A stretch of DNA of 64,000 bases from Rhizoctonia solani (lineage: Eukaryota; Basidiomycota; Agaricomycetes; Cantharellales; Ceratobasidiaceae), in NCBI RefSeq assembly GCF_016906535.1, contig NC_057379.1:1302001-1366000 (forward strand), given 5' to 3'. How positions within the stretch are numbered: position 1 is the stretch's first letter; every line of letters begins with the position of its first letter. The notes beneath the pieces are model-generated. The model was given only the letters and a program-made list of their open reading frames with translations. It had not been told where the DNA came from and made no database searches. A program made the translations under genes and the position numbers. Shown piece after piece: positions 2,502 through 64,000 of this stretch.

Positions 2502-2503
2502 TA

Positions 2504-33344: not shown

Positions 33345-33452
33345 ATATATCTTGTGTAAATTGATGACCATATGTACCATGCGTTGTATCAAATATGATA
33401 GTTGTAATCTGAAAAGCTATTTATATGCTATATTTGTTCGACAAGACATGTA

Positions 33453-35401
33453 CAGTCGACTTCCACTTGATGCACCATGATGGGCCTTATGGAATTCAGG
33501 TGTTTCGATGGCTTTTAGGTTAGTAAGCATCTTGGTCATGAAGTTGGCTTCTGGCGCTACTGTAAGATAAGATAAGATATATTTAATGAAAGCTTGGTAC
33601 ATCGAGTAGACGGTAAACGAGTGTGTTGCTACATGCTAAAGTAAGACAAGCATAGTGGAATCAAAAAAATATTAAAGAGAAACATTAGACAACTGGCACT
33701 TGACTTCCCAGAGCTTGGGAAGAATACCAGTGTGTTGCCAGCAATTCTGGATGCTTGATGCAGAGACTTTGTCCCATGCTTGCTGTGACCACATTGCGTC
33801 CAGCTGATGAACCTTGTAAGGATTCAACGTACCAGCTGCCTCACAATCAAGGACAAACTTGGTGTGGAGCCGGCAATAGTTAGACTTGAAGTTGCGGATA
33901 ATACCCGCGTCCATAGGCTGGATCCAAGACATAAGGTTTGGAGGCAGGTAGTAAACTTCAATGTTGGGAGTGCGCGCTGGATCATGTTTGTGAGAGCTGG
34001 CGTTATCACAAAGCAAAAGGATCCAGCAACCTTGGGATTCCATTTGCGCATTAAGATGTTCAAGATATCTACGCGTAAATGTTTAAATAAAACTCAACAA
34101 AAGTTACTAAGAAAATTACTTACGCTTGCCAAAGCTCAGCCGTCATCCATGCCTTCTTATTGGAGGCATAATCAAAGCCATAATTGGATGGAGGACCATT
34201 TGTAAAGCAGCAAGGACGGGAGGCAAACCCAATAGTAAAGGGCGGAAGTTTCTCCCCTGTAGCACTAGTCCCAAGTACATATGTTAGCCATGTCTTGTCT
34301 GCCTTGACCCCAGGTAAGGCTTGAGAAGCAAGGCCAGACTTGGGACTCTGTGAAGGTAGGTGCGCCGTCTCATCAACATTGAAGACGCTGTCCTTGGGGT
34401 ATCAAGAAAGCACCTCTTGGATTGTGCATTTGTGATTCTTGAGCTCTGCAATTGGTGCCAATGCAGCCTCACCATGGAAGGTGTACTGCTTGATCCCAAA
34501 TCTATGCTTGAATCAAGTGAGCCACCTGTCAGAGAAGCTGTGTACAAGAGCTGGGTCAATATCCATATCACAAGCAAGCCGCTGGCCCTTCTTGCAAATC
34601 AAATAGCCGTTAAGTCAAAGTCTGTCACGCTCTTTTTCACAAATCCACTCATAGAGCTTGAGCTCAAGTGCAGGCAAGACACCAGATTGATATTGGCTCA
34701 AGGTACTATTGCAAATATCTTTGCAAATGTACTGGCAAGTGGTGTCTTTGTTAGATACATGACAGAGAATGGTCTGGCGGCAAATTGTTGAGAAGCCCTG
34801 ATTACAAAGGGAATAGACAATCTTGCCCATTGGGAGAGTTTCCTTGTTCTTGCAATAGAAAGCGGCAACTTGAAGCTGCTGCTGGAAGGTGAGGCTCTGG
34901 CGTAGGACGCAGCAATCTGCTGGCATGTTTCAGGAAAGATATCTGCAAGCCTGATTAAATTTCAGATGAATATATGCATATAACAACTCACAACTTTGGA
35001 CAAAAAAGGGTGAAAATATGATGCAAAGTGCGAAACAAGTGTGCTAGTAAGGCTATAGAGTAAACTGCTTGATTCCAATGCAACGCATAGATGGGTTTAT
35101 ATACACAGCAGGAGGAGTAGAAGAGACACGTAGCACATAAAGCTCAATTAGTAGTGCACAACAATAGTCATATGATTGAAACAATAGTCAAGCTACTGGG
35201 TGAGTAGTATTGGATACAATGAAATTTGTAAGAGAATTATAGTTATACATTAAATAATTTCCACACGCGCAATTGAACCACGTATGCTTATCTCGTATGG
35301 CTGTGCTACATGGAAACCGCTCCTTATGGCATAAGAATCGCTCAGGGTCAAAAGCCGAGAGTGGTGCATCAAGTGGGGGTGCATCAAGTGGAAGTCGACT
35401 G
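33453..35401 (-). mobile_element. Complete pogo/Fot1-type DNA transposon with TIRs
   Basis: 1949 bp, flanked by TA (33451-33452 and 35402-35403). The inverted ends are identical over about 24 bp (CAGTCGACTTCCACTTGATG and beyond). At the right end the last 15 bases of the TIR are repeated once more just inside. It carries one transposase gene on the minus strand, which is inactivated. Confidence 0.93.
33672..34926 (-). pseudogene. pogo-type DDE transposase, three premature stops
   Basis: The N-terminal part has a CENP-B-like DNA-binding region (LTFQQQLQVAAFYCKNKE...). The catalytic domain shows the expected acidic residues: Asp in VFNVDETA, Asp in LLCDNASSH and Asp in PMDAGII, then a C-terminus with SIQNCWQHTGILPKLWE. 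A 55-nt intron separates LWQA and YLEHLNAQ (near 34070-34125). The frame is otherwise continuous but broken by TGA codons at 34615-34617, 34513-34515 and 34402-34404. Each is preceded by T, as expected from TCGA changed to TTGA. The true start was not determined and may lie upstream of 34926. Confidence 0.9.
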
Positions 35402-35403
35402 TA

Positions 35404-36315
35404 CTCCCACTATCCCCCACTACCCCTGAAGCATATTCAAATGGCCATTTTGGGTTCATTTTGGCAGAATTGGTAATAATGTAATAACACGGCATGTCGT
35501 AACAGCTTGGCCAGGCCTAGGTCGAATTACATGACTAGGAGGTGCAAAGGCAAAAGAGGATACCGATGATACAATCACGTGGCAATGGTCTGTCTCCAAT
35601 GAGCCACCTTGGTGTCGCGTGTTTAGCAGATGCATCGATCAGACGACCTTTACTGTACGCACTGCTGACCCGCCGCCACACCATCCCAGATTGAATGCCC
35701 CAATAACCCACCTTGCAGTACCAATCCTACCTCGGGAATTAGCAGCAACATTCAATACCTGCCGACTCTGGAGAGCTAAACCACATTCGACAGGGATTCA
35801 ATCTTGGTCTGTATATAACGAGAAGAATAGCACTCTATTGTGTGTACTTTACATCATGCACGTGTATCCGAAGAACCGAATAGCCAAATGCACGCCTGCA
35901 GATTGTATTGGTATTCGTGTATTTACGTCAATTGTTTTCTCCTCGCTGACGCCCCCCGTTCGCCACCATTATCAGCCAGACATGGCCTACCCAATCTATG
36001 AGTACTATTCGCAGCTCAGCAGCACCGACCATCCAATAGAACCTATGTGCTGGGTCCGCTGGCCCATATATGGAACCGAGAGATGGTTCTCATTAACGGG
36101 CTTCACGACGACCGGAGTCCCAACGCCCGAGTAGCTATTCGGCCTACGTGGTTCCCTGTCAGTACTTTTATACCTCAATGAATAGTGGAGCAACACGTTG
36201 CCTCGGTCCCAGTGGGCAATGTACATAATCCGCCAACTTCAGATGGTGAGTAATTCCCACTATCTAGGCCTCATAAGACTGGTAAAGTCGTTGCAATAAT
36301 TGATTAGGAAACAGC
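35404..36315. other. Intergenic region upstream of ANL D
   Basis: An open frame of 171 codons at 35619-36134 (plus) has no recognisable domain; I cannot support it as a gene. Confidence 0.35.
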
Positions 36316-38350
36316 ATGACTCCTGAGTTCGTTAATCCGTTCCCCAAAGCCCACCCCGGTCCCAGTGATGCCGACCCCCTTACCGACGACGAGCTCTCCC
36401 TCCTCTTAGCCATACCCCGCGCCGCGGAGTCCACTCCCAACTCTACGCTCTTCCGACTTCCACTCGGCCCCCACCCCTCTATGGGATTTGTCGATGCCAC
36501 TTGCGCCGAAGTCCGCTCTATTGTTGCACGCTTAGCCAGCACATGGAAGACCAAGCTGGCAGAGCTTCTGCACAAACCGGACGAGCCGGGCTGTGAGTGG
36601 TCGATCGGGCCAGGGACAACTATATGCATCATGGTGGAGCCATCGTTCCATGGAATCTTCCATCTGCTTGCTTTTTGGGCTATCGGGTGCACGATTCAGT
36701 TTGTATCGGCTGTGGATCCCGAGGTGGGAATTACCCAACTCAACGAATGTCACTGCAGGGCCATGATATGCTCGGGGCTTAGCGAAAAGCAGATAGATAA
36801 ATGGAGGAAGGGGTTCGACGGTGCTATCATACAACTGCCAGAGCAGGAGCAACCACATAGGCTTGTACAAGCCGAGAAGCATGGACAACGTATGTTATAT
36901 AACGCCAAAATTAATATTGGGTATTGATCTTAACTCTAGATAATACATTTTATCCGTGGCCAACTGCCCAGCGTCCTACTCCGGCGTTCATCTTGCAATC
37001 ATCAGGCACAACCGGTGTGCCTAAACTACTCCGGTTTTCTTTGTATTTTTACACAATTGGGCTGGCGAACCACCGTCAAAACCAATTCTCATTAGCTCGC
37101 CTAAGTAGGACGTATAAGAGTCCTTACACTCACCCGCGTTTAGTTCTCGTCCCTTTCTATTGGCCAAGTTTTTATACTTACTTGGTCATTACTTTGGCCA
37201 CCGGTACCCCTATGGCATTCGCTTACTTCATGGATGTTCTTCGACTCACTGGAAATAAAATCGTCGAGTGGGCCCTAGCGCTTGACGTGGGGGCGATTGG
37301 CTGCACTTCGGGAATGTTTCGACAGATTCCGGAGGCCATGCTTGAAACTCATTCGGAGTTTTTCCGTAGTCTCCTTTCGCTCTCTTTCGGCGGCTCCGCC
37401 ATGGACGTTGCTCTATCACACACACTCGAGAGGCTGAAAATTCCTGTCACAGTAAGTTTTGTGTTCATACCATTTGTCAATATGATTGTCTTATTACGGA
37501 ACTACAGAACGTATATGGGAGTTCTGAACTTGGTAACATTTTGATTGCTCGGAAAGCACCTTATACCCATCTCACCCCACTCCGTGCGAAACCACCTCCC
37601 CTCGTTCGTCCGATTTCAGAGTACGGCCCCGATGGATCGCGTTATGTCGAGCTTTGGGTCTTGGCTTCAAGTTCTGTTCACATCACTCATCACCTTGCGT
37701 ATGGCGGGGTACCAATCAAGCTCGAGCCGTTTCTGGGTGATGGGCCGCACAATGGTGAACCCGCCTTCAACCTCGAAGACATATTCAAGGAAATTACTAT
37801 CAACAATGCGTCCGGTTCAGGCTCCGAAACCGTATACATCCACGCCGGGCGCCACGGTGACCAACTTCGCCTAACGGGGCTCGGTGTCGCGGACATTGAT
37901 GCTCCCCTATACGAAGGTCTGTTCACATCCGAGGCAAATGCTCGTATGGTCCAGTTGGATGGTCGACCTTGGACAGTGGATGTCGTCGAGTTGTTCGGTA
38001 CTAATATGCCCAGCACGGCTCTGGTCATCCAACTTCATCTGGATCAAGACCAGGACCATGATCTGGGTGGAGGTAGTTCGTCGCAGGAACTGCCTATCAG
38101 CGAGCTATTCGATGTAGTTGAAAAGGTAAATGACGCTCTTGGGCTTATCGGTTATACAAGAGTGGATGTGAGAAGGCGTGTATTAGTTCTGAATCCGGAC
38201 AGATGTCTGGTGCATGGACCCGGATCCGAAAGACTCGAGCCCTCCAGGCCTCTACTCTCTTTGAGTATCACACATAAGCGCACACTTAAACGCTGGGAGA
38301 ACGTTTGTAAATTCAAGCCTTGGCTCGATGGGCTGGATTTTGGTACATGA
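36316..38350 (+). CDS. Stand-alone adenylate-forming (ANL) enzyme, paralogue D
   Basis: Exons 36316-36889, 36940-37451 and 37508-38350; 642 residues without a stop. The first exon has exactly the same length (574 nt) as in A and C. Motifs: LQSSGTTGVPK, NVYGSSELG, FNLEDIF, GRHGDQLRLTG and SITHKRTLKRW. The C-terminal part has an extra acidic insert (DQDQDHDLGGG) compared with B. It is closest to C in exon 1, but the two diverge strongly after about 36715. No tailoring domain follows. Confidence 0.9.
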
Positions 38351-39117
38351 TCTTCTGTTCAACCTCTACCGGGTTGATGGTGGCGTCTTTTTCACAACCA
38401 AGGGGGTCGAGTCAATATGCTAGTTTGTGAATTTGGCCAATAAATAAGGAAAAACGTGACTTCATCTCGGCCCCCATGTAAATAAAGAAAGTTATATCTA
38501 GCAGAGTATGTGCAAAGGGCAGTCAAATAGAAGGGCGGGTTTGCGAGAGGTGCGCGAGAGCGACGTCCCAAGAAGGATAGGGAATAAGTCCTATATTCAC
38601 TTATTCTAAGCTGCAGGTGTCTTTAACAACAAAGCACTTTACCTGATATATACATGCACAGATATTCTCTTTGGGCTCCCACCCCAAATGATCTGCTTCG
38701 CTGAGCCACCGAATCACACTCTTGGATTTTCACCGGAGTTGAGAATTTCTCGGGTAGTGGATATATACTTACTAATGACAAAATTGTATTGTACGGTGTG
38801 GCTCGGGGCCAGCGAGGAGTCACGGCGCGGACTTATTCATCAGGGTCGGCGCGCATACCCCTCACTTCGTATCGTCGATAGCACGTGATCCCATCAGTTG
38901 ATTCCTCGACCTCTACTACCACAGCTTGTCGCTCCTCCTCGTTGTCCTTTTCCCACCCGACCCGCGAGCCTCCCTCGCGTCTCGGTGCCCCGGTCTTTCC
39001 TACGGGCGTCGCTAACGCGACACCGGCGGCCACACCATAATATAATATTCACCTATAGTGCACACCACCGCGAGTTCTCACACTACACGCGCCGACGACA
39101 CAGATAAGAATAAGTTG
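38351..39117. other. Intergenic region downstream of ANL D
   Basis: No gene recognised; an Arg-rich open stretch near 38900-39100 looks like chance. Confidence 0.35.
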
Positions 39118-39298
39118 GATTTTTTTCTGTAGCTATGCAACGATATCTGATTGGCCTAGTATTGATGTTTAAAGCGTTGCAATTGCACTGTTTGTAGCGC
39201 ATATTGCGGTGTAGTATGTACATTGTGTAAATCAAAGCCCTCCAGTCAACGAGCTCGGGTCTTTTAGAAACTTTTCGCAAAAAGAGACATTTTGCCCC
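39118..39298 (-). pseudogene. 3' remnant of a third intradiol dioxygenase gene
   Basis: It matches the 3' end of IDO2 at about 47640-47800: both contain AACGAGCTCGGG, a TTTTAGAAA block at the stop, and GCAAAAAGAGA, followed by similar 3'-flanking sequence (TATCTGATTRGCC, AAGCGTTGCAA). Only the last codons (a SLFA-like GPI-tail end) and the 3' flank survive; the catalytic part is gone. Confidence 0.7.
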
Positions 39299-39606
39299 AT
39301 CTCCCGCTAGATCGACAGTCTCATCCAATCTAGCGTCCTGCTTCCATACATTCGTTGTAAAATCGCGAACGCCAGGGTTAGTAATTTTCAAGGTCGTCGT
39401 GCTGTCATGTTGATTTGGCGGTACCAAATGTTCTATACCCCTAAGAACAATGGTCAGCTTACCAGACGATTTGAATACATTGGACGTGTCCCGGAAACGA
39501 AGAGCTGGAACAATGTATTCAAGGAGATTGTCGTCGGAGATAGCTCCAAAATTGCATATATCCACGTGTGGCGCCACAGCAATCAGATTCGTCTTGGTGG
39601 GGAGGC

Positions 39607-39850
39607 TGTAGAAATATCATGTATATAGTAGTAAATACAAGAAGGATCTGGAATGTACTGGAACATGCATGTAATCGAGTCAAGCGACGATACCTAGTCA
39701 TATACTAGATGACTCGACTATAATGTAAAGGTATAAATACGGGTGCACTCGACCGTATAGTACCTCATCCTCTCTTTCTCTATTCACACTACTGTCTTTA
39801 CTATTGTTTTGTATTGATATAGTTCTATTTACAAACATATTCTTTCTACA
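39607..39850 (+). repeat. Copia 5' LTR
   Basis: 244 bp, TG...CA ends, nearly identical to 46091-46334. It contains a TATA-like GGTATAAATACGGG segment near 39730. Confidence 0.95.
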
Positions 39851-39863
39851 GGTTATGAGCCCC
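39851..39863 (+). promoter_or_regulatory. Primer-binding site, initiator tRNA-Met anticodon-loop type
   Basis: Directly after the 5' LTR, GGTTATGAGCCC is complementary to GGGCTCATAACC, the anticodon stem-loop of eukaryotic initiator tRNA-Met (CAT anticodon). This matches half-tRNA priming as known for Drosophila copia and yeast Ty5. Confidence 0.75.
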
Positions 39864-42800
39864 GATTGAACGCTTATAACCAACCGTAAATAGAATATAT
39901 AAACCACTTACCCGAGTATACTCAAACACAATAAGAAATGGCTGAGAAAACACCAACCATTACTGGTGCAAGCGGATTGCACCGAATCCCATCCCTCCAG
40001 GGAACTGAGAATTACAACACATGGCGTATACAGATGGAAGATATACTTACCAATCTCAATCTGTATAGCTATGTAGACGGCACAAATGAAAGACCCAAAC
40101 CTAAGATAAAAATCAGGGTTACTGGTTGCAAAGATGACAATGGAAACAACTTACCCAACCTTGAAGTAGGCAATGATGACTCCGCATACACGGAATGGAT
40201 CAAAGCCAATCGTAAAGCACTGTCAAATATTAGACCAAGAGTCAAAGGGAACGTACTTACACACATACAATCATGTAAGTACTCCGCCGACGCTTGGAAT
40301 CTCTTGGCAGCAACATTTCAAGTTAAGGGTACTGTTGGACTAATTGACTTACAAAGAAAGTTCTTCAGCCACAGGATGTTGGACAGCAAAGACATTGAGG
40401 AACACATACAACATATGCGTAGATGGTTCCAACAAATCAATGACATTGCACCAAACTTGTGCACTGAAGCCAATTGGATAACCACGTTAGTAGCAAGCCT
40501 ACCTGACTCATGGGACATGTTCACCCAGTCTGTAAGCTTTGAATTCAACACTGAAGACAAGAATAAATTAGCCAATCAAGTGAGTGACCTACGCTCACGT
40601 ATTATGGCCAAAGCACACCAAAGAAATACCCAACAACCTGACGGTAAGACTTTCTTTGCTACAAATAAACCAAGCTTCAATAAATTTGTATGTACCAATA
40701 TGAGTAATAAAGGCCCAGATAAGTCTAAATCAAAATGCAATAACTGCAGAAAGATTGGACACTGGGCAGCCAAATGCCAAAGTCCAGGTGGAGGCGCATT
40801 CAAGCCCAACCATTCAAATAAAGGCGGTCAACCAAACAGAAGATTCAACACACCAGGAAAAGCTAGGAATGGCAATGCCTGCACGCATATAGCCATAGCT
40901 AATAACTCCAAACATAAAGAATATGTGTTCTTGACTCTTGAGGACAAAATAAGCCTGATAGGCAAGACCCCTGACACCTGGATAGCGGATAGCGGCACTA
41001 CTACTCACATAGCAATTGATTGGAATGCATTCTCCAATTATACCAAGTCATCCAGCTACGTTGCCGGAGTCACTGGCAAAGAGCCAATAATGGGCCGCAG
41101 CACTGTAGAGCTATTGTGCTTAAATAGTACAGAGAAGAACAAATACACAAAGATTAAGCTTACCAATGTAGCTCACATGCCAAGTTTGCCTGCAAACCTA
41201 ATCAGCTTATCATTAGTAACTGATAAAGGCACTAGAATTCTGATGGATCAGAATGAATTGCAAATACTAGATAAAAACAATAGACCAATCATTATTGGAT
41301 CAAAGTTGAAAAATTGCAAACAAGGAAACCTTTGGAAGATCAGCGTGAAACCTGTAAATAATTGCAATCAGAAGCTTGAGAACAATAAACTTACTGAAAT
41401 AGTACTGACCAAACAAACCAGACGCACATGGTTTGAATGGCACAAGGTACTTGGGCGCATTGGCCCGCAAGCACTCCAACAACTAAAATTCAACAAAGCA
41501 ATTAGCGGAATGGAGGTAATAGAAGACAATATTGGACTCAACTTTGAATGCAACGTATGTATGCAGTCAAAGGCACACACCCAACTGTTTCCAAAAGAAT
41601 TGCAAACCAAAGTGTCCAAAATTGGCAAATTAATTGTTACCAATGTATGGGGACCCGCTTGAACTACATCTATAGGGCAATACAGATATTATGTATCATT
41701 TACTGACATTGCAACTAGATTTACCTGCTTAGGATTTCTCAAACATAAGGATGAAACTCTGAACAAGTATAAAGCATTTGAAGCAATGATAAATACACAG
41801 AAAGATAAAAAGATAAAGCAAGTACGCTTTGACAACGGTTGCAAATTTGTAAATAAAGATTGGATTGAGCACACTAACCTGAAAGGTACAATTTTAGAAA
41901 CCACAGCCCCATACTCAGCGCAACAAAATGGCATTGCTGAAAGGTTAAATTGCACATTAGCAGACAAAGCATGTGCAATGCTACTTGAATTGGGCACACC
42001 AAAGTTCCTTTGGAACAAAGCAATTGCATATGCCTGTTACCTGAAAAATCAAGTACCAACGCAAGTGCAAGGAAAGTTCTGGAAAACGCTGTTCAAAGCG
42101 TTTTGGGGTAAGAGACCCAACATAAGTGTACTGCAACCATGGGGAACAAAATGCTATGTACTGGATCAAGGGGAGAGCCGCTCTAAGTTAGAATCAAAGA
42201 TGTTCACGGCTCTATTTACTGGCATATCAGACATTCAAGGCAAAAGCTGGCATTATTACAAAACAGGAGCAAACTGTATATTGCACTCACGCAATATATT
42301 GTTCCCAAGAACCCATACACAGGTCAATAACATACACAACACGGATTGGGGGGAATCAGTTGTTCCACCTGCTGAGGGGGAGAGAATGACTTGCACCAAC
42401 AGCACTGCGGAACAATGCAACAAAAATGCTAGAACAGGGGGAGCAAATTGAGTCAGTGAACAAATCAAGTCAGAAACAAAACATACTAGTGAGCTGAAAG
42501 ATATAAAAAGCAAAGGAAAGAACAAACAGAAAGCATCAAACTCACCAAGCCAATCTACTGAGCCTAAACTCACTACTCATGCTGCTGTTCCTAAACCCAG
42601 CTCTACTTGTTCTAAGCTTACTATGCCCCACTCTGGGACTTGTCTTGATACTGCTGAATCTGCTTGCAAGATCAATGCAAACCCCTCCCTCAAGTCCTCT
42701 GGCATCCAAACCTGTTGCCAAAACCCCAACAAGCCCAAGCTCACATTGGACACCAACTATGGAGGTGTCAAGATCACCGTCAAAGACACTGCTGCCGCTC

Positions 42801-43797
42801 CCACCAGTTTGTCTAGCCCAAACATCCCTGGTGCATTCACTAACTATGTTACAGAACTTGACAAATACTGCAATGACTCAGGAAGCAATTACTCCAATGC
42901 ATACATCCTTGGAACAAGCGCAAATCAACACAATTCAGTCACCAATATCACCTCATTTTGTTCCCACATCCCCTTGCTTGTCTCCAACACCTTGTCTATT
43001 ATATCTGCCCCAACTATCCCAACCAAACTTGCCTCTGAACTGGCCGCACAGGAGGAACCACAGATCCTGGCCTTCACCCCAACCAGTGAGTTGGCTGGAC
43101 AATTTGGTGAACTCAAACTTACCTCAGAACACTTCCCACTGCCAACAGAATTGATCCTGGAGACCTTCACAAACAACAACCCGCACTGGGTTTTTGCCGC
43201 CAACCTTCCAGTGACCAGCAATAACCCAACCACTGAGGAGGCATTATTGGGACCAGACGCAGACAAATGGAAGGCAGCAATGGAACAGGAGATTGCAACC
43301 TTGGAGAAACAGGGAACGTACAACACCTCAACGCTCCCACCAGGCAGGAAGGCAATGGGATGCCAATGGGTACTCACAATCAAACAAAACAAGGAGGGCC
43401 AACCCATCCAATACAAGGCGCAACTAGTTGTGCAAGGTTACAGCCAACAGCCAGGTATTGACTATGGCCAAATGTTTGCTCCAGTGGTATGTTTAGATTC
43501 TATCCGTACACTCACATCACTTGCCAATCAAAATGATTGGGACATCCAACAGCTTGACGTTACATTGGCGTACTTACATGCCAACGTCAAAGAAGAGCTT
43601 TACATGCATCAAATACCATACTTTGATGACAGATCCAGCAACATTCTGCGCCTACGCCAATCACTATACAGCCTTAAACAAGCCGGACGCATGTGGAATT
43701 GTATGTTTGATTCCAAAATGAAGTCACTTGGCTATTCACCTTGCTTAACAGACGCCTGTGTGTACCATTGGATCATGGATATATCCGGCAAACTCTA

Positions 43798-44376
43798 TGT
43801 TGTAGACACAATCAATACCACGGAATTTATTCCAATTTTCTCAAAGTTAAACAAAGTTGAACAGACAACCTTTTCAATCACATGACATTGGCGCTTATAT
43901 TATACAATAAGCGCCAAGCCATGTCCCTCCCTGCGCTTATTCAGCACATGTAGCCACCTCCACCTATGACGTCATCATGACACGTCAGTGACACGTATGC
44001 ATGAGTAAGGCCAACTGCGGAGCGGGGTTCTTATTGGATTACATATTTGATTTACTGTATTTGTAATTAGCTGATACTTAGAATATATAAGGAGGCACAC
44101 CAACCATGGTAACACCCAGGTCAATTACCTCTTGTTGCATCAACCAATTGTACAAGGGCCCTAAGCCCAGTAACTACTTAGTTTGCACCATCCACACCGC
44201 CTTAAGCGGCTTCTTTGCTGTATTTACCTAGTCCGCCATTGCCCTTATGGCCTTGGTCACCGTACTATAGCTGGTTGTTGTTGTAGGTAGCTTGCTCACC
44301 GCCTTAAGCAGTTTCACTTAGATACATCCGGCCGCAAGCGCCCACCCCCTTGACGTCCTTACAGACGTCTAGGACA
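43798..44376 (+). repeat. Solo LTR nested in Copia RT (579 bp)
   Basis: TGTTGTAGAC...CTAGGACA, flanked by CTCTA on both sides (43793-43797 and 44377-44381). Removing it and one CTCTA reconnects the RT frame. It is the same family as 1454-2155. It contains a TGACGTCATCATGACACGTC palindromic segment and a promoter-like AATATATAAGGAGG. Confidence 0.95.
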
Positions 44377-44687
44377 CTCTACGTATCAATTGTTGCCATC
44401 CATGTCAATGACTCAATCATTATTACAACCCCCAACAACACCAACTTTGTAGTATCCAAATTACTTTGCAAATTTGAGATGCGCAACCTTGGACCCATAC
44501 GGCATTTTTTAGGTATAAATTTCAAATGGTATAGATAACAAGGTATGCTTGTGCTAAATCAAAAGGCATATATTGACTCAATTGTTGATATTGCAGGCCT
44601 TAAAGATGCATACCCAGCCAATACTCCAATGAGTCCGAATGTGCAACTTACATGATATGATGGAATTAAGCCAAAATTCCCATACAG

Positions 44688-45262
44688 TGTCAGAGTCTGA
44701 CTAATGAAGAATGGGATAAATGCCTAAAGAGGCAGTGCTGGCTTTGGGGATAAGCAGAAGACTGCAACCAACACTTTAGATAGAGAGATTACTTGCCAAA
44801 TATGGCACAAGACCCCTTAGAGTAGAGCAGGAGAGTGGGGAGGGTAGTCAGTAGATTGACAGGAGGTCAAGTTCTGGTCTGAATGCCAGAACTCTCCCTT
44901 CATTATATACATCATACAGAACAAGGGAACTGTAAAGTACAAAGGGGAACAATGGAAGACATACTACAAAGGTATGGGTAACTAAGAGAACAATAGAAGA
45001 CATACTACAAAGGTATGGGTAGCTAAGAGAACAATAGAACAATGCAACTAAGGACATATGGTAACTAAGTAACCAGAGGACAAAGCTAACAGGCTAAACA
45101 AAGGGACCATTCACATTCCATGTTGATTGCTCTGCCAGGGGAGTCCTGCATGGCCTGTGGTCATGTTGGGAACATCCCCCTGGTCCATATAATTTGTAAA
45201 ATTTAGATAAAATGATAATAGAATATTAGGGTATCTGTGTCCATGCCTCTTGGGTCATGACA
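44688..45262 (+). repeat. Second solo LTR nested in Copia (575 bp)
   Basis: Inverted ends TGTCA and TGACA, flanked by TACAG (44683-44687 and 45263-45267). It belongs to a different family from the previous one. It contains a ~47-bp direct tandem duplication around 44947-45040 with ACATACTACAAAGGTATGGG in each unit. Confidence 0.92.
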
Positions 45263-46090
45263 TACAGCATATTTGTTGGTAAGCTGCTATACGCTGCACT
45301 ATGTACACGGCCCAATATTGCTTATGCGGTCACTCATTTAGCTCAATACACAACATGCTATGGTCCCGCTCACGTGACAGCAATCAAACAAGTTATACAT
45401 TACCTTAAAGGAACATCATTCCTTGGGCTATTGTATAAGCAATTGGAGACTGAAGTTGGATTTGGAGAAGTTGGCTACTCTGATGCCAATTGGGGAAGTA
45501 ACTTACTTGACCGTAAGTCTATTTCCGGCAATGTATACTTATTGGGCGGAGCCGCCATTTCTTGGTCCGCTAAGAAGCAACCAATGGTTGCATTATTGAC
45601 CATGGAAGCAGAGTACATGGCATTATCACATGCATGTACTCAGGCAATTTGGTTCCGTCAATTTTTCCAGGAACTATATTACCCAGCTGACGCTCCCACA
45701 CTCATACTTTCAGACAACCTTGCCGCCCTAACGTTATCCGTTGAGTTGCAGTTCCACGGTTGTTCAAAGCACATCGACATTTGCCATCACTTCATGCGCA
45801 ATACTATCGAGAAGCGTATGATCTCTATGCTGTATGTGCCATTGAACGAGAACCTAGCTGATGCGCTTACTAAAGCCCTACCAGCACCGCAATTTAATTA
45901 CCTGACAAACGCGATTATGGGCAAACAGGTATTTGAAGGACCCAAAGAGGAAGAAGCGGATTAGTGAAACTGATTGATGAAGAATTAGCTGTATAACTGA
46001 AAGACTGAAACCTGAATGAGATTGAATGTGACTGAACGAATGTAATATTTTCTCTTTACATGTATCCTCGCTTGCCTGATTAAGGGGGAG

Positions 46091-46334
46091 TGTAGAAATA
46101 TCATGTATATAGTAGTAAATACAAGAAGGATCTGGAATGTACTGGAACATGCATGTAATTGAGTCAAGCGACGATACCTAGTCATATACTAGATGACTCG
46201 ACTATAATGTAAAGGTATAAATACGGGTGCACTCGACCGTATAGTACCTCATCCTCTCTTTCTCTATTCACACTACTGTCTTTACTATCGTTTTGTATTG
46301 ATATAGTTCTATTTACAAACATATTCTTTCTACA
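46091..46334 (+). repeat. Copia 3' LTR
   Basis: 244 bp, preceded by the polypurine tract TAAGGGGGAG at 46081-46090 and followed by the duplicated GAGGC. Confidence 0.95.
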
Positions 46335-47034
46335 GAGGCACTGGGCACATCGATGCTGCTTCATATGAAAATCAAATCATGAGCGAGATTAATGGGCGAA
46401 TTAATCGAGCTGATGACAGTTCTTGGCTAGTAGGTACAGCTTTTTGGTACGAATATGCGGTGCACTACTTTAGTTATCCAACTACGGTCTTCCGAAACTG
46501 ACCATCGTCCAAGAAACCAACCCAGCGAAGAGCTGATTCAGAACCTATATGAATCAGTTAATCGGCTCAACGATCACTTGAAACTTGGGCGGTGTATGCG
46601 ACTGCATGTGAAAAAAACGTACGTTGATTATAACCTCGGATGGAAGATTCGTACATGGATCAAATGCCGGGGTGTTGGCCGGGCTGCCCTTCTCTTTGAA
46701 TATGACTCATAAGCGCATGTCAAAACTATGGGAAAACGTTTGTCGGTCTAAGCCTTGGTTGGATGTTTTGGACTTCAACGAACCTTGAGTCAAAGCTCAT
46801 ACAAACGAGCACTCATTGTAATTGAAAATTCATGGATTCCCTTCTAAGAACCGACTTTCCCCAATTCAACCTCCCGTTTCTCGATATTTTATTAGCCCTT
46901 GGCCACATAGGTGCCTAATTAGGGGTTACACAAGTCACTCGAACAGCAGTACAGGATAGTTATTTGCGGGTAAACGATTCGTTCGGGCTTAAAATGTAGC
47001 CGAAGATCCAAGACCTGACCTGTGCTACGATCCG

Positions 47035-55394: not shown

Positions 55395-55480
55395 AACCCA
55401 GAGGGCGGATTCCCGGACTTAAAAAGGTCGCACATTATGCGCAGAGTGTTGGCAAAATCCGACTGCTATTTCCATGAGTC
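55395..55480. repeat. Short dispersed repeat shared with 12.85 kb
   Basis: CCGGACTTAAAAA and TTGGCAAAATCCGACTGC correspond to CCGGACTTAAAAA and TGGCAAAATTCGACCAGC at 12855-12905. Boundaries unknown. Confidence 0.5.
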
Positions 55481-55702
55481 CAAGTTTCCAGTCCGCCTCC
55501 GTGTTCGGTCCAGCTGTGAATTTTGGAACTCTGGTACGGGTGCTTGGTAAGATCTGGAAGTGATGCGGATTTTCCGCACCCTTGAGGCTCGCCGTGCAAG
55601 TCCACGGTGGCTGATCGAGTGTGGGGTAGGTAATCGGGCATAACCATATCTTATCAAGGAAGCAATTACCGAAACGAAACCAAGGCTTGTAATAAATTTC
55701 AT
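55466..55702 (-). CDS. Possible small secreted protein (78 aa), uncertain
   Basis: The minus-strand frame starts MKFITSLGFVSVIASLI, a plausible signal peptide, followed by a basic stretch. It has no cysteines and no recognisable domain. It overlaps a dispersed repeat at its 3' end, which weakens the case for a gene. Kept only as a candidate. Confidence 0.2.
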   Translation of the reverse strand: MKFITSLGFVSVIASLIRYGYARLPTPHSISHRGLARRASRVRKIRITSRSYQAPVPEFQNSQLDRTRRRTGNLDSWK

Positions 55703-57041
55703 TACTGTTGCGTCACCTGCGCATGACTACCTTTCGTGGTTTCTTGTCCTCGACCACCAGCACCCGCTACCTATGGATATCTTCAAACTTCATTGCCCTA
55801 TCTACTATCTAGTTGGGCTCTCTGAGGAGGAGGCGTGCTTTATCCCACCCCTTGAAGCTAGAAAAAACTGTTCGCCATTGCACCAGTCTTTGGATTCTGT
55901 GACCTCTGCTGTCATCAATGGTGGCCGAATCCTTTCAGTGGAGGGCTGCTATGACCATGCACATCAGCTGGCTTAGTCTGCTAATATCTTCTATTCGAAA
56001 AAAAATCTACCCTATTGACACGATATTATACCTCTATCTTTTGATTCATTCCCCTGAGTCAGACCACTATGGATCTCTTGGTTTTAGGATTTGTCTTCCC
56101 ACGAAGTCCTAGCAACGTTGATTTCACGTTAGTGACAAGAGATGTGTACTTCCCAGTAACGACTTGATACAAGCGACGGCTTATCATCTTGAGTCCATGG
56201 AGGCTATACGTTTGATACATCTGGCGGCTTGACAAAACAACTCAATACACCCGCCTGACACGAGTTTAGCTCAAGGATTTGCCGTGGCGACCCAATTTGT
56301 CGGAACGATCGAGGCTAGCTATTTCTGAAACACCTATGCCGACGAAATAAGATAACGATGTTGTTTATCAAATTAGTATTTTTTTTTGAGGTTTGGGCTC
56401 AGGCTGTAGTACTATCAGAATTTTGGAGCGATCATATCTGGCCTCTCTAGTTAGCGCCAGTTTCATGGCACAGTGACTCCAAACCGGTCCATTAGTACCC
56501 CAATGATGCTTCACAATATATTCAGAGGTGGAGCTCTTTCTCAACGACTGAACTACTTTGAAAACTTTGATTATCCCGAAAGCGATATTTTTTTAGTCGG
56601 GCTTCCGCGTTACGTTACCACTACTGTTGGACCCAACTGACTTCGCATATATTCACTGAAATTACTGATAACCGCCTCACGCTTAGCATGACTCGCACCA
56701 AACATTGAACTGGGCTAATGCACGGCTACAATTCTGACTTCTCTGGCTCTGTTGTTAAGCACTCTGACGCTGTGTATTCTAAATGTTGCTGCTTGTTGGA
56801 TACCACGTATTATTCTGAGTGGAGTACTGAAAATCAATATTGAAACCCATCTATCTATGTGCGTTGGATGACGTATCAATACTTCCGTAATAAGATAACT
56901 TATAGCATCGATAGTTCCTTATTTGGAACTTTGTCTCGGGGTGACGGTCGCTTCTTGCTCTTCTTGGTGTATGCGCGTGCTTGGCTCTAGGTGGCGGATA
57001 AATGAGAGGGGCTTCGCCTTTGTGCCCCATGCTGCATCACC
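55703..57041. other. Intergenic region, nothing recognised
   Basis: Short frames only; no motif, RNA or repeat identified. Confidence 0.4.
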
Positions 57042-57141
57042 ATGTCTATTGAGACAGAAACTCCGAACAACCAATATGCAAAAGAGAATGTGTAGGAGAC
57101 CCACTTGTCTAGAAACCCATGACATTGTCTGAGTCTCTGCA

Positions 57142-58286
57142 GATCCGGCTATTGGAAGAGTCCCGATCAAGATTGCCACCCGATTCGAGAACACTAAGAA
57201 CGACGATGAGCTGAGGCTCAAGGGAATTCCCCTCTGTTCAATCGATGTCACTATCTCGCATGTGGCGGTTATGTATGCGGCTGGCCGACTACTCGATAGC
57301 ATACGCGAGCCATTCAATGCATCAATCATACGCGCGGAAATGGACCAATTGAGCGACCGGGAAGAAAGGACTCCGACAGTGACCAATGAAGATTATGAAA
57401 ATTGGAAGCAAGAACAATTAAAGGCGGGAACGATTGACCCGGTAGATATACCTTCCCTACCGTTAAGCAAAATCACTAACAAGGGGAATAGCTGTTTCTC
57501 ATACCAACCATGATCCTAGTGATGCGCGGAAGTCCATACCAAAATGTCCATATCTCTGTCAATTGTTATTCAAGTCGTTCAGCATTGGAAATAAACCTGG
57601 ATTTTGGTCTGGGGCGCGTGAGATGCTTCATACCCAAGGCAGCGATGGAGTTCGTAACATCCGAGGAAGGTCTGGTATCGATGATATAGGTGAGGCTTAC
57701 AATTAATCTCAGCCCTCGGTTGGCAGCTTATTATTTCACAGCGATTCGGAAGGTTCAGACTTGGTTTCTTTATATAGATGTTTCTGATCCTCTTCGCCCA
57801 CGCTACGCTTTCTTGGAGGAGTGTAACATTGTTGAGTCAACTCAAGCGAGGGATAGCGGAAGACCCAAACCACTTTATATCTTCAATGCTCGCGAACATG
57901 CTTACCAACTCATGATACCCGAATCTGAACTATTCTCCAATGGCGGGAGGTTCGGTGAAGAGCAGTGGTCGCGTCATGTAGAAGGGGTTCGTCAAACCGG
58001 ATTTAGAGCATTTAACAAGCTCCCTGACGATCCCGACTTGGACCCGGACTACAAGGCCTTACTGATATCAAGGATGAAGAGAGCGCGAGAGCATCCAGCC
58101 GTCGTCAGAATGCAATCTTTTGGGTGGTTCACACCCGACGATGTAATTAACCCCGACGGGAGTGCCCTACTGCAAGGAGTATGGAGATTCTCGCTTGAAA
58201 ATTTCTCAGATGATGAAAATGGATCGGTCGTTGGGCAAGTCTCACTTTCGTTGAGCTTTAATCGTCGATATATTAATTGGAAGTAG
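57142..58286 (+). CDS. Unrecognised protein-coding exons (hypothetical gene, partial model)
   Basis: Two long exon-like stretches in good codon context. About 57127-57490: IGRVPIKIATRFENTKNDDE, ISHVAVMYAAGRLLDSIREP, then an acidic/basic helix-like part; an AG acceptor precedes it at 57126. About 57713-58286: preceded by AATCTCAG, with AAYYFTAIRKVQTWFLYID, FGEEQWSRHVEGVRQTGFRA, DPDYKALLISRMKRAREHPA and LQGVWRFSLENFSDD, stop at 58284-58286. The segment between (57530-57690) may hold a further exon. A possible start is ATG 57042. I do not recognise the family. The Gypsy LTR begins about 10 bp after the stop, so the native 3' end may be displaced. Confidence 0.45.
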
Positions 58287-58296
58287 AGTTGTTGTC

Positions 58297-58740
58297 TGTA
58301 AGGGTTACGCTATCACTGTAGGTCTAGCTCTGGTGTATGCGTTACCCTTACGATACACCGTTACTTCTCCTTATGTTACACTTGTACCCGGTGCTCTGTT
58401 CAGGCTGATTACTAACTATATACGTTCATTTGGTTTCTTCTGTTTACGCATGTATCGACCCGGGCACCTTATAAGGTCCCGGGTCCTCTACCCACTCTCC
58501 TCCTGCCTTTACTCTTAATATCAATATCGAGTGTGTGTTACGACTTGTCATTTAGGCGACGCCGTCGCCGACCGAGTCACATATATACATCCGATAAGTA
58601 GAGACCTCACATTTTTTGACATATCCAATACCACACTTCGGAGCTAACAACTCACGAAATTTTCGAACGACAGTAGCACGGGTTGGCCTCCGTAGCTCTG
58701 TCACCTTGTTTCTATCTTAACCCTTATAGATCGATCTAGA
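58297..58740 (+). repeat. Putative 5' LTR and leader of the second Gypsy element
   Basis: TGTAAGGGTTACGC at 58297 is a likely LTR start, but without the 3' LTR in the window the right boundary is uncertain. A near-perfect 29-nt palindrome at 58457-58485 (GACCCGGG...CCCGGGTC around TTATAA) lies within it. TTAACCCTTATAG at 58717-58729 is complementary to the LTR start. Confidence 0.5.
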
Positions 58741-58758
58741 ACTGAAAGTACGTACAGA

Positions 58759-61260
58759 ATGAGCAGACAGCTACGCAGTGGGCGCAGCTACGACGCCTCG
58801 AAGGAACTCCAAGTTCCTAAACGAAAGACGCGGCAACGCAAGGCCGCTGGGGCGAAGGCCGATGCCAATGAACAGGCACCGGAGACGAACGGTAAGCAAT
58901 TGATAGTACCTAGAGAAAGGGAACGGCTTACGTTCGGGACGGCTCCTGGGGAGAGAAACCCCAGAGAGAGCGTACACATAGTAGGCACCGGGAGGCGCCG
59001 AGGAGTGGCACTCGTCGGGAACGACGCGGTCAAGCTATCCCCGTCTGCCTACGCGGCCCTAATGAATAGGGCCCCACCCATCCGGAGGGTGCTGAGCTGG
59101 CCGAAACCAGCGATCGAGACCCGCATGATAGCGGATGCCCCCAAGGAAGGGGAAGCAGCGGTTCCTAGGAACGCTGAGGCAGCCGTCAGAGTCCCGGGAG
59201 AGCAAGAACTTACTCCCGGAGGAACCGACAGAGCGCCGGCTGCCGTTAGAGCGCCAGAGACACCCTCGACGAACATGAGGAGGAAGGACACGTCCTCGGA
59301 CGACGATGTGTATGTAACTGCCAGAACAAGTCGAGTATGCGACGAGAGTGTCGTTCTGGATAGTGAGGGTGAACCGCTGTTAGCGCAATACGTAGTAAAT
59401 GACGATACCAGTAAGACGCCCTCCGTTAGTAGCGAGCGAAGGAAGCGCTGGCGCCGTAAGTCCAAGGGGAACATGAAAGACCCGATTGGAAGCCCCAGTA
59501 ATGAGTCTAAGTCAACGGCTAATTATGAGGGACTTACCTGGGATGAGGAGGTCCGACGGGTCAACGGCGAAGACCCGGGTGGTCCAAACACCAGCCTCCC
59601 GGACATTAGTGAATGGGTGAATCCCGACTGGTCACGGTCGGACTACATCCACGAAAGCAATGAGCAGAGCGCTGGGACCGATGGAGAGAGCGTACAGGTC
59701 AATGCGCTCATCTTCGAGGTTGATGACAACTACGTATACGACGACGACGAGTACGTGGAGGTGCTGCGCAATTTGCGCAATCAAGACCGACCTGAGAGCA
59801 CACATAGTCAGTCCCGAGGGGCTGGCCCATCGCAAGCTCGCCAAACGCACCGAGTCACGGTGGAGGAAATTGACGAAGAGACTGAAACAACTGAGACTAG
59901 TCGGACGCGCTCGTACGTCGGTAAAGGAAAGGGCAAGAAGAAGCCTAGGGAAAGGAGCAGGAAACGCAAGCGGCCAAGCCTTGGGATGGCACTCGACGAC
60001 CTAGAAGGGTCGCGAGGAGAAAGGGGCCGACCCACAGTCAGCAGGGAACCCTCAGTCACGTACCGAGGAGGAGGATACCTGGAAGGACTTATCAGCCCCT
60101 CACCAGCTCAACCTACGATGAACGCTGAGAACGACCGAGAAACCGTACCAAGGGGTGATAGGGGCGGGGCTAGAGACAAGCCTACAACCTGTAGCAGAAG
60201 AACCAACCCACCGCCTTCTACGGTGGAGTCGCCGGCCCCATTGCATGGGCAAGGTGGTGACGGGGAACTCCCGCATACAGGCACCCCTGGAAGTGACTCA
60301 GAGCCCTCCGATTCAGACTCGTCTGACAGTGACTACAGCTTGACCAACAAGTCTATCTCCTCACGATCCACGGGGATGACGAGACAACAAGCTAGCCGTG
60401 AGCTGGAAGACATAGTCAGAAAGCTCAGGAAACAGAACAAACAACTGGAGAAGAAAATTGTGACACAGGCAAGATCAGGGTACAAAGCCCAGACGCCTAA
60501 AGCTTACAAGGGCGAGGCGGACATTGATAAATACGACATGTTTATCTTTAACTATAAACTATACTTGTCAGATACCAAGCTTAGCGACCGCAAGGCCGTC
60601 CTCACAGTGAGCCGATTCCTTGAGGACAAGGCGGCGACATGGTACATGATGAATGTAGCGCCAGACCCTGAAGCTTATACAATGGAAACAATATACATTG
60701 GACTTTACAAATATTGTTTCCCCCCCGACTTCAAGGAGGAGGTGCAACGTCAGTATAACCAGAAGCGGCAAGGGGACCTGAGCGTTCAGGACTACTTCGC
60801 CAAGCTGGCTAGGCTCCATCGCAGACTTAGGGATATTGACGATAGACAACACATTCTGAGAATCTGGGAGGGCGCCGCGCAGTATATTAAGGTTGAATGG
60901 GCTCTAAAATACATGCAGCCGGAAACTACAGACATAGAGACACTGCAAGAAGCGGCATTGGCAGCAGAAAGGGCGCATAAGATCAAACGGAAAATCAAAA
61001 GGTTGGGAAACAACAAGGGAAATCCACAGAAGGAGCGGTCGTGTAGCCCCCCCAGGAAGAACAACCGCCATCCTAATTACAGAAGCTTGGCTAATGGATC
61101 AAACGGGAGGAACCGCAACCATAGAAGCGGAAGCTACAATGGTAACGGTAACAGGACGGACAAGCGCCAAGACGAGAATAGACACAAAACGCAAGAAGGA
61201 GGGCGCAAAGAGGCGAACACGAGGAAGGAAAACTCACAAATGAAGAACGGGATAGGCTAA
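58759..61260 (+). CDS. Gypsy Gag-like protein, 833 aa
   Basis: Start MSRQLRSGRSYDASKEL. A long, charged, low-complexity N-terminal part (~570 residues, with acidic and Arg/Lys-rich patches) precedes a retrotransposon Gag domain: DKYDMFIFNYKLYLSDTKLS, AATWYMMNVAPDPEAYTMET, QRQYNQKRQGDLSVQDYFAK and LQEAALAAERAHKIK. The frame ends at 61258. The usual zinc knuckle is not in this frame but in the overlapping pol frame, shifted by -1, so either programmed frameshifting or a recent indel separates Gag from its nucleocapsid part. It is unusually long for a Gypsy Gag. Confidence 0.85.
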   Translation: MSRQLRSGRSYDASKELQVPKRKTRQRKAAGAKADANEQAPETNGKQLIVPRERERLTFGTAPGERNPRESVHIVGTGRRRGVALVGNDAVKLSPSAYAALMNRAPPIRRVLSWPKPAIETRMIADAPKEGEAAVPRNAEAAVRVPGEQELTPGGTDRAPAAVRAPETPSTNMRRKDTSSDDDVYVTARTSRVCDESVVLDSEGEPLLAQYVVNDDTSKTPSVSSERRKRWRRKSKGNMKDPIGSPSNESKSTANYEGLTWDEEVRRVNGEDPGGPNTSLPDISEWVNPDWSRSDYIHESNEQSAGTDGESVQVNALIFEVDDNYVYDDDEYVEVLRNLRNQDRPESTHSQSRGAGPSQARQTHRVTVEEIDEETETTETSRTRSYVGKGKGKKKPRERSRKRKRPSLGMALDDLEGSRGERGRPTVSREPSVTYRGGGYLEGLISPSPAQPTMNAENDRETVPRGDRGGARDKPTTCSRRTNPPPSTVESPAPLHGQGGDGELPHTGTPGSDSEPSDSDSSDSDYSLTNKSISSRSTGMTRQQASRELEDIVRKLRKQNKQLEKKIVTQARSGYKAQTPKAYKGEADIDKYDMFIFNYKLYLSDTKLSDRKAVLTVSRFLEDKAATWYMMNVAPDPEAYTMETIYIGLYKYCFPPDFKEEVQRQYNQKRQGDLSVQDYFAKLARLHRRLRDIDDRQHILRIWEGAAQYIKVEWALKYMQPETTDIETLQEAALAAERAHKIKRKIKRLGNNKGNPQKERSCSPPRKNNRHPNYRSLANGSNGRNRNHRSGSYNGNGNRTDKRQDENRHKTQEGGRKEANTRKENSQMKNGIG

Positions 61261-64000
61261 AGGCCGCCGGGCTATGCTACGTGTGCCAGAGGTCGGGTCA
61301 CCTCGCCCGTGATTGCCCAAAGTTTCACAAGGCAAAACCGTTGCATATACGTGCAAACGCGGTTAAAGTCAGACCCAAGGAGAAAGTCCAAGTGTCCTCA
61401 GTCATGCTCAAGGAACTGGAGGAACTCACCCAAACAAAGGACAGAATCAAAGTGAACGCCGTGAGGGTGGGACCAAAGAAAGAGCCGACACCGAAACATA
61501 TAGAGCGCAATACTGTCAAGGTCAAGGACAACTCACGCAAGGTACCGGATACACTGGTTGTCGAGGCCAAGATCAAAGGCAAGTCGGTCCGTGTACTGCT
61601 CAACTCAGGATGTCAAACTGACCTGGTGTTGTCGGCGTTGGTCAATCAGCTTAAATTGCCAAGGATGGCACTGACAAAACCGTTACAAGTGCAACTGGCA
61701 ATGGCGGGGTCAAGAGGCACATTACATTATGGTGTATCAGCTAGATTAGAATATCAAACGATCAACAAAAAGCAAGGGTTTGATGTGGGAAACCTGGACA
61801 ACTACAACGTGATCCTGGGCACGCTGTTCCTATTCCAACATAGCGTAAGACTGAGCTTCAACCCGTATGGGGTATACATTGGGTCTAAGGAGTCGTTACC
61901 ACTGGAAGGAGAGAACGTGATCCAGATAAACTTGTTGTCAGCAGACATAGTTGGCGCCAGGATGGTCGAGCTACGAGAAAGTCTGAGAGCGGAGGCGTCC
62001 AACGTCTGCAAACCAAAGGACGGAACAATACCATTACCACCATTTAGAGCCATAAACCACCAAATACCCCTGTTGGACGAATCCAAGGTGTATAAGTTCC
62101 GACCGTCTAGGTGCCCTGAAGCGCTGAAAGGTCAGTTTGAGGCTAAGGCACACAACTACCTGAAATCGGGACGGTGGAAACACAGCACCAGATCAAACGC
62201 TATACCAATGCTATTCATACCTAAGAAGAAGGATGGAAAGGTTGAGCTACGCACCGTACTAGACAAGCGGGAACAGAACGCAAACACAGTGAAGCTGGCG
62301 TTGCCGTTACCAATACCAGAGGATATACTAAGCAAAGTCAGTAAGCACAAGTACCGGACGTTGTTGGACGGGAAAGATGCGTACGAACAGATCCGCGTAG
62401 TAGAAGACGACGTACCAAAGACGTTGTTTCATACACCGATGGGCACGATGGTCAGCCAGGTGATGCAACAAGGGGACTGCAACGCAGGGGCCACATACCA
62501 AGCACTAATGAACCACATATTTGCCCCCTACATAGGCGTATTTATGTTTGTGTACCTGGACGACGTTGTGATATTTTCAGACACGCTAGAGGAACATGTA
62601 GAACACATACGTACCGTACTGAGAGTGCTGAAAAGGGAGCGGCTATTCCTGAGCCCAAATAAGATGCAGTTCCTAGCTGAGGAACTGCATATACTTGGGC
62701 ACATAGTGGACGACCAAGGCATTAGGATGGATCCTAATAAAGTTGACTCAGTATCGAAATGGAAGACACCCAAAAGCAAGGACCAACTGGCAAGCTTCCT
62801 GGGAGCCGTGGGATACCTCGCCCCAAATTGCCCAGGGATACGGATCCCAATGGCGCCGCTGGCCAAACGAGCGAGTGGCGACACCCCGTTCCGCTGGGGC
62901 GGGCTGGAGGAGCGGGCCTTCCGCAAGGTGATACAATTAGTAGAAGACTACAGAGATAAACATTGCGTAGCATTGAAGTACGGGCCGAACAAGGACCCAA
63001 TCTATCTGATAACGGATGCTAGCCTCACGGGAGCAAGTGGACTAGTGAGTCAAGGAAGAGAGTGGCAGACGGCGCTGGTAGCGGCGTTCTGGTCAGCCAA
63101 ATTTACCTTGGCGCAGCAAAACTACACAGTGACTGAGCGCAAGGCATTAGCAATAGTGGCATCGCTGGACAAATTTCAGCCGTTACTGCATGGCGTGAAA
63201 TTCGAGATACTCACCAATCACAAGGCACTTGAGTACCTGATGACACAGAAAACGCTCAACGCGAGGCAGACAAGATGGTTAGAGACAATTAATCAATTTG
63301 ACTGCACAATTAGATACATCGAAGGGTCCCAGAACGTGCTGGCGGACGCACTTTCTAGGATGTACAGCGAGGACAAAAAGGGAACGGTACAGGCGGCAAG
63401 TGAATACATGGCGGACATAGATGGAAGCGACACGACGGGGGACGCGCATACACCCACTGTACAGTTGACGCGACCCGTGATCACAGGTATGGCAGCAAAA
63501 GTAGCGGCCAAGAGCCGAGTAACATTGGAAGGGGTGAGGCGAAACCCAGCTCGTAAACGTGTGGCGCCGGAACGATACAACCCAGAGATCCCGGGAAGGG
63601 GCAATTCCGGAAGAATTGGGACAAGAGCCCCGAAGAGAAGAGGCACCGCTGATAAAGCAAATTGGGACCCTGACAGAAGGGAAGAATTTGATGAGATCAT
63701 GAATGGGTCAACAGAAGCCGGGAGTGAAACACGTGAGACTGAATCAATGAGCTCACCAGCAAGCGTCAAGCTGGAGGGCGGGAATACTACAGGAAACAAA
63801 GTAGACCCAATGGACAGATCAGACCACAGGCACATAACACAGCTAGTGAGCGAAATAGACATAGTGAGCGCAATAGCAGAAGGATACAAGAAGGACAAAG
63901 ACTACGAGAAAATAATTGAGGAACCATTGCAATTTCCTCAGTTTGAACTCCGCAAGGAACTAGTATACTTTAGCAAGCACAGTCGATTGTATCTATGTGT
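61182..64000 (+). CDS. Gypsy Pol: zinc knuckle, protease, RT, RNase H, start of linker (3' partial)
   Basis: Open from 61182 to the window end in the -1 frame relative to Gag, overlapping it by ~79 nt. Order: zinc knuckle CYVCQRSGHLARDC (61275-61316); retropepsin-like region where the catalytic DSG is NSG (LLNSGCQTD, Asn codon 61602-61604); RT with LLDGKDAYEQIRV, QQGDCNAGATYQALMNHIF and YLDDVVIF (catalytic Asp pair intact); RNase H with LITDASLTGAS, VTERKALAIV and LTNHKALEYL, the last with Asn where Asp is usual (63216-63218), then VLADALSRM. An Arg-rich variable linker follows to 64000; integrase lies beyond. Two catalytic substitutions imply a dead copy despite the open frame. Confidence 0.9.

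Follow-up and report, generated by a model that had tools for sequence, protein, structure and literature searches.

What mutational process inactivates transposons in Rhizoctonia solani, a member of the Agaricomycotina (Cantharellales)? The question is raised by a 64,000-nucleotide stretch of its genome (the window; C10:1302001-1366000, NC_057379.1, in a genome assembly of 40.7 Mb and 16 contigs), in which a pogo-like DNA transposon, a Copia element and a Gypsy element carry premature stops or catalytic substitutions. A preliminary description had assigned most inactivating lesions in these three unrelated transposon classes to C-to-T changes at TCG that resemble repeat-induced point mutation (RIP). 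The classes are as it named them, with Pfam matches to DDE_1 for pogo, to gag, rve and RVT_2 for Copia, and to Ty3 gag, RVT_1 and RNase H for Gypsy. Our analysis reveals a real and strong hypermutation of repeats in an Agaricomycete, which is led by TCG and is of a kind known from Pucciniomycotina.

Loss of TCG in transposon interiors

Depletion was measured as the fraction TCG/(TCG+TTG), with analogous fractions for ACG, CCG and GCG, and positions 4000-33400 served as the host DNA of the window. In host DNA the TCG fraction was 0.45, on par with the other contexts (ACG 0.42, CCG 0.47, GCG 0.49), but it fell to 0.016 at Copia positions 39856-43800 and to 0.11 at pogo positions 33453-35600. The longest runs free of TCG were 4347 bp in Copia and 1412 bp in pogo, for which the host rate predicts approximately 144 and 47 TCG, respectively, and 281 bp in the host parts of the window. 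Within the two element runs, where TCG is absent by definition, the fractions for ACG, CCG and GCG ranged from 0.19 to 0.39. The sum of TCG and TTG per 2 kb was roughly constant and TTG nearly doubled in the depleted parts, which indicates that TCG was replaced by TTG. The Gypsy element of the window is partly mutated, with TCG representing 52 of the 204 TCG and TTG sites in 60500-63500, and two other copies retain 9 and 1 TCG vs 175 and 180 TTG per 3 kb.

As the preliminary description would have it, ordinary DNA lacked a TCG deficit, judged by composition in this one genome. The lowest TCG fraction among 41 host 1-kb bins in the window was 0.30, and 10 of 12 1-kb stretches chosen by a fixed rule (starting at base 1,000,001 of contigs C1-C5 and C7-C13) showed 0.35-0.60. 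The two depleted stretches (0.00 and 0.11) approximate the expectation from a repeat share of one-fifth (PMC7884421). Host stretches and Copia flanks were classified by their TCG composition. Hypermutation was confined to repeats in what was sampled.

The mutational spectrum was examined by comparing copies drawn from fetched loci (L-numbered), with partial Copia copies included in the summed counts; pairwise counts re-use sites across copy pairs. When the TCG-rich Copia copy L038 was compared with eleven others, C-to-T changes were found at 546/866 TCG, 150/676 CCG, 117/793 ACG and 24/543 GCG, and at a fraction of no more than 0.011 in every context in which C precedes A, C or T (CpH), with the same sites recurring across pairs. 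A second TCG-rich copy, L039, was discordant with five lightly mutated copies at 327/560 TCG, 28/319 CCG, 25/378 ACG, 14/261 GCG and 23/5198 CpH, such that C/T differences among lightly mutated copies affect 58% of TCG, 5-9% of other CpG and 0.4% of CpH. A block bootstrap of the L039 set placed TCG 6.6-fold above the next CpG (4.4-9.5) and 134-fold above CpH (74-318), and the mean of the other CpG contexts 16-fold above CpH (8-41), which bears out the TCG excess over ACG, CCG and GCG that had been predicted for multi-copy elements. We read two components in this spectrum: an ordinary excess shared by all CpGs, resembling that of methyl-CpG, and a further contribution at TCG. Bases at -2 and +2 showed no clear preference, with mutated TCG fractions of 0.55 to 0.73.

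The same order extends to other families. With the window Copia and pogo families masked, TCG was highest (0.57-0.92) and GCG lowest in five of five identity bands, and CCG and ACG swapped rank between bands; matches below 300 bp or of at least 99.9% identity were dropped, pairs are not independent, and a 580-bp repeat family contributes many of them. The two other Gypsy copies were discordant with the window copy at 31/34 and 29/29 TCG, at 0.26-0.42 of other CpG and at 0.18-0.19 of CpH. Comparison of pogo with its longest copy yielded small counts (TCG 8/10, ACG 10/20, CCG 6/11, GCG 5/24, CpH 7/724), and among the nine compared loci, of which eight aligned, the short pieces L051, L052 and L053 were fully discordant in several CpG contexts; pogo by itself would not prove a preference for T. 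Within the Copia frame, 136 sites vary between TCG and TTG; the T state creates a stop at two of them and the C state at none, a polarity in the right direction that depends on few sites.

Against this background, the nine sites on which the preliminary description was built read as it stated, with the three pogo stops (34615, 34513, 34402) on the minus strand. The five stops read T-TGA and fit a C-to-T change in TCG, but the four Asp-to-Asn changes, which lie in CGA, reveal a CpG target only, because A at codon position 2 forces the preceding T and leaves them uninformative on it. At eight of the nine sites, the CpG or its other-strand mutation product is present in another fetched copy, and the 42 site-by-copy comparisons comprise 20 other-strand products, 16 window states, 4 CpG and 2 others. 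The Copia stop at 44653, which had been set aside as a misfit, reads A-TGA and is indeed not TCG, but it would fit a second-tier change of ACG to ATG. That such changes make up most of the inactivating lesions goes beyond the nine fitting sites; the Copia element also contains two nested 576-bp insertions. The TCG bias is nevertheless far stronger than nine sites suggest.

Copies were mutated independently, and both strands alike. For six pairs of lightly mutated Copia copies, the number of shared mutated sites was near that expected by chance (e.g., 45 vs 45.3, 29 vs 29.0, 39 vs 37.6 and 10 vs 12.2), which indicates that most mutations postdate the separation of the copies. The long terminal repeats (LTRs) of the window Copia differ by a 2-bp gap and just two substitutions, both TCG/TTG and in opposite directions. 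The palindromic target TCGA was unchanged in 82 cases and had become TTGA in 76, TCAA in 75, another sequence in 2 and TTAA in none. A strand-run test for processive deamination detected no runs in 11 copies (z -1.38 to 0.65).

Spared edges, CpG-poor families and features of the window

Mutation did not extend evenly to the ends of the elements. In Copia copies with a TCG-normal flank, 4/87 TCG were mutated in the terminal 400 bp compared with 352/415 in the middle (1600-3600); these sums cover the window, L036, L038, L040, L041, L042, L044 and L045 where covered, with L040 and L041 representing one split copy and the fragment L043 omitted. The pogo element, which is without LTRs, likewise keeps TCG at both ends. 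In L035 and L037, which lie in depleted surroundings, 19/19 terminal TCG were mutated. The abundant 580-bp repeat that forms nested insertion 1 in the Copia element provided a related comparison: across 25 copies (at least 450 bp long, with enough flank in the fetched loci), TCG content tracked that of the flanks (rho 0.60, P 0.002), with exceptions that include one TCG-rich copy in depleted flanks.

Two multi-copy repeat families are almost free of CpG in the copies that were read. The LTR that forms nested insertion 2 in the Copia element belongs to a young Tf2-like Gypsy family, which was read at the window (44686-45261) and at L059, L073 and L074. Among the 40 of 50 candidates that were scored, this LTR has 12 other copies at 99% identity and four copy pairs approximately 6 kb apart (on C3, C9, C15 and C16). 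The C9 pair, which is 92% and 99% identical to the window LTR, encloses 3,001 bp with 5 CpG (observed/expected 0.035), 0 TCG and 155 TTG. This interior encodes an open gag of 271 aa and an open pol of at least 735 aa, which matches a cluster of 21 sequences named 'Transposon Tf2-7 polyprotein'. Two further stretches, one enclosed by the C3 pair (whose LTRs are both at 99%) and one by the C15 pair, share 99.8% and 99.1% identity, respectively, with the C9 interior and are just as poor in CpG; transitions involving CpG account for 1/6 and 2/17 of their substitutions. Judged from these copies, the family amplified after its loss of CpG, and that loss may be the reason for its spread; shedding of target sites has been proposed as a route of evasion for Microbotryum (PMC5381629). 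The second CpG-poor repeat (L045:6032-7854; L060) is approximately 1.9 kb long and, counting the repeat itself, is present in 12 copies of nearly full length with identities of 97% or higher. One copy is CpG-free over 1.8 kb, another has 4 CpG in 1.9 kb, and the repeat has no open frame of 150 aa. Separately, one of the fixed-rule stretches (L062, C2:1000001-1001000) holds one CpG per 1 kb.

Features of the window, with the evidence on which each is based
Feature	Positions	Strand	Evidence
pogo-like DNA transposon; no TCG/CGA in 33619-35030, both ends keep some	33450-35404	-	DDE_1, boundary set with copy L047, TCG positions
Copia element; no TCG in 40289-44635, both ends keep TCG	39600-46335	+	Pfam, copies, TCG map
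Copia 5' LTR; 98% to 3' LTR	39600-39851	+	LTR comparison
Copia 3' LTR	46084-46335	+	LTR comparison
Nested insertion 1; ~576 bp, short many-copy repeat with 0 TCG and 38 other NCG	43801-44376		copies, TCG counts
Nested insertion 2; lone LTR of Tf2-like Gypsy family, 576 bp without CpG	44686-45261		copies, CpG counts
Gypsy element; gag 58696-61260, pol from 61182, extends beyond window	58696-64000	+	frames, Pfam, copies
Multi-copy repeats, TCG reduced, left edge of window	1-2160		copy search, TCG counts
571 bp without TCG (33 TTG, 10 CpG) adjoining repeats; no other copy detected	2161-2731		copy search, TCG counts

The pogo element is flanked by tandem AMP-binding-like genes (31335-33344 and 36351-38350), which are 98% identical over their first 300 bp and 71% identical over 1.7 kb, a pattern that hints at gene conversion. 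As a homology test on a duplicated gene, the pair is too diverged at 71% to inform.

Mechanism and rival explanations

A C5-methyltransferase gene at C3:2180619-2184713 matches DNMT1 structures and, when read across two introns, encodes a PCQ triad (motif IV) and an ENV triad (motif VI). A search for TET/JBP returned one match below the family cut-off (C2:5076-5339, near the contig end). Basidiomycetes mainly have DNMT1, DNMT5 and CG methylation (PMC7862722). Based on these data, we lean slightly toward a repeat-directed, CpG-specific hypermutation, led by TCG, that works from the interior of repeat blocks through DNMT1-type methylation and a deamination with a preference for T. Such hypermutation would strike transposon copies after their insertion. 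On both strands alike, TCG would be the earliest and quickest target, changing to TTG; CCG and ACG would follow at lower rates and GCG at the lowest among CpGs, with CpH all but untouched. The process would start in the interior of a repeat block and spare a few hundred bp beside ordinary DNA. The DNMT1-type enzyme may methylate CpGs inside silenced repeat blocks, and the methylated C, or an enzyme intermediate, would then be converted to T in a reaction that favors T at the 5' position; we infer both steps. A family could survive through youth, or through the loss of nearly all CpG with its frames kept open, which appears to be the course taken by the Tf2-like family. The target spectrum, the independent hits, the strand symmetry, the restriction to repeats in the sample and the spared edges are direct observations.

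Several observations weigh against it. L035 and L037 are also the most mutated copies, which confounds age with embedding in depleted DNA. The Copia copy L039 is TCG-rich though it directly adjoins a TCG-free 2.5-kb repeat block, which indicates that surroundings alone do not decide; this copy probably retains TCG because it is young. Four stretches inside mutated blocks were searched for single-copy DNA. Three are multi-copy almost throughout (L045:6000-7900, L039:400-2700 and L042:1-3600), and in the fourth, window 1-3900, the 571 bp that follow the repeats at the left edge have no detected copy yet are TCG-free, possibly through leakage from the adjoining mutated repeats or as an orphan old repeat. 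Apart from this piece, the checked mutated sequences are multi-copy, such that they fit targeting by homology, by transposon identity or by chromatin alike. Furthermore, a genome search that ignored introns, and could therefore miss a gene, detected no second C5-methyltransferase, and the T-preferring step is without an assigned enzyme here.

True RIP, in which a premeiotic homology search mutates duplicated DNA above a threshold of length and identity, here with TCG as the motif, would explain why repeats are targeted, why copies are hit independently and why C changes to T on both strands. It could also account for the spared edges, if pairing is unstable at the ends of homology, and for the TCG-free 571-bp piece, which would fit RIP leakage. 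However, RID/Masc1 enzymes carry EQT or EET (PMC6709928) where the one methyltransferase gene detected in the search that ignored introns has ENV, no strand runs were detected, and the CpA preference of most Pezizomycotina is absent (CpH 23/5198). The TCG content of the 580-bp repeat also follows the flanks, a trend for which age or length could be responsible, and overall we regard true RIP as rather unlikely. Passive deamination of methylated CpG in silenced repeats, with repair or chemistry raising the share of TCG, would also yield a CpG-only spectrum, and the other CpGs exceed CpH by approximately 16-fold, which is the usual size for passive 5-methylcytosine decay. What speaks against this explanation is TCG itself, which exceeds the next CpG by 4.4-9.5 times and CpH by approximately 134 times; to our knowledge, TCG is not favored in the human signature of 5-methylcytosine decay. 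Ultraviolet damage at methylated dipyrimidines should lift CCG well above ACG, but the observed values were 0.088 and 0.066. We consider passive decay improbable.

APOBEC-like deamination of cDNA or single-stranded DNA shares the TC preference, but the requirement for a 3' G, the equality of strands, the mutated DNA transposon and the lack of strand runs make it barely credible. Only marginally easier to believe is that TCG loss was inherited from an already mutated master or that the sites are assembly errors. Amplification of the Tf2-like family did follow its loss of CpG, as a mutated master would require, but the Copia copies span TCG-rich to TCG-free states with mutations at independent sites, and the spared edges and sharp borders between Copia and host DNA are unlike miscalls.

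Relation to known systems and significance

Earlier work has treated hypermutation at TpCpG as peculiar to Pucciniomycotina (PMC4014442, PMC5381629), and the preliminary description had remarked that a strong signal would be notable given that precedent, which the placement of the host in Agaricomycotina makes more so. The Pucciniomycotina process (Hood 2005, Horns 2012; via PMC4014442, PMC5381629, PMC12730594) likewise produces C-to-T changes at TpCpG on both strands of repeats, in organisms with an enzyme of the Masc2/DNMT1 type but without RID (PMC4352252, PMC12730594). R. solani differs by its subphylum, the near-complete loss of targets in some copies, the second tier of CCG and ACG, the spared edges and the almost CpG-free amplified family. 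RIP in Neurospora and other Pezizomycotina similarly changes C to T in repeats and spares ordinary DNA, but it uses a CpA motif and RID, whereas R. solani shows CpG with a 5' T and no RID-type gene was seen in the search that ignored introns. Within the species complex, R. solani AG8 undergoes CpG hypermutation between nuclei, also C to T and commoner near repeats (PMC4014442). That process affects genes and repeats alike as heterozygous single-nucleotide polymorphisms, whereas the one reported here is repeat-borne and TCG-led, and the AG8 study expected a CpG but not a TpCpG bias in R. solani (PMC4014442). In Zymoseptoria tritici, the DNA methyltransferase Dim2 is linked to C-to-T changes that contribute to transposon inactivation outside meiosis (PMC8016269); Dim2 acts mitotically at a CA motif, whereas the R. 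solani process, as read from the genome sequence, acts at TCG.

We found no report of TpCpG hypermutation in Agaricomycotina in the free-license part of PubMed Central. A 2025 survey of 1,239 fungi, based on k-mers enriched more than 2-fold, described ascomycetes as unique in repeat-enriched mutation signatures (PMC12543289), and a rise of TTG below 2-fold would escape such a cut. The Rhizoctonia genome paper concluded that RIP is not prevalent (PMC7884421, section 9). In our data, the index (CpA+TpG)/(ApC+GpT), for which the RIP threshold is <=1.03, was 1.46 in the Copia core, 1.74 in the pogo core and 1.15 in host DNA. It thus moves the wrong way in mutated cores, which can explain a missed detection. 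The other RIP index (threshold >=0.89) was 0.80, 0.69 and 0.81, respectively, and neither index crosses its threshold in the mutated cores.

Taken together, these results suggest, tentatively and at somewhat less than even confidence, that an Agaricomycete has a TCG mutator that is not RID-based RIP and acts outward from methylated repeat interiors. The Tf2-like element, an apparent escape lineage, would have been driven CpG-free yet open-framed and would spread unharmed. The usual RIP indices and screens for enrichment would not detect such a mutator, which may therefore be widespread among basidiomycetes. A crop-infecting Agaricomycete thus shows an extreme form of a mark tied to another fungal subphylum, and the graded copies of one element, the spared edges and the almost CpG-free family make both the mechanism and the arms race testable.

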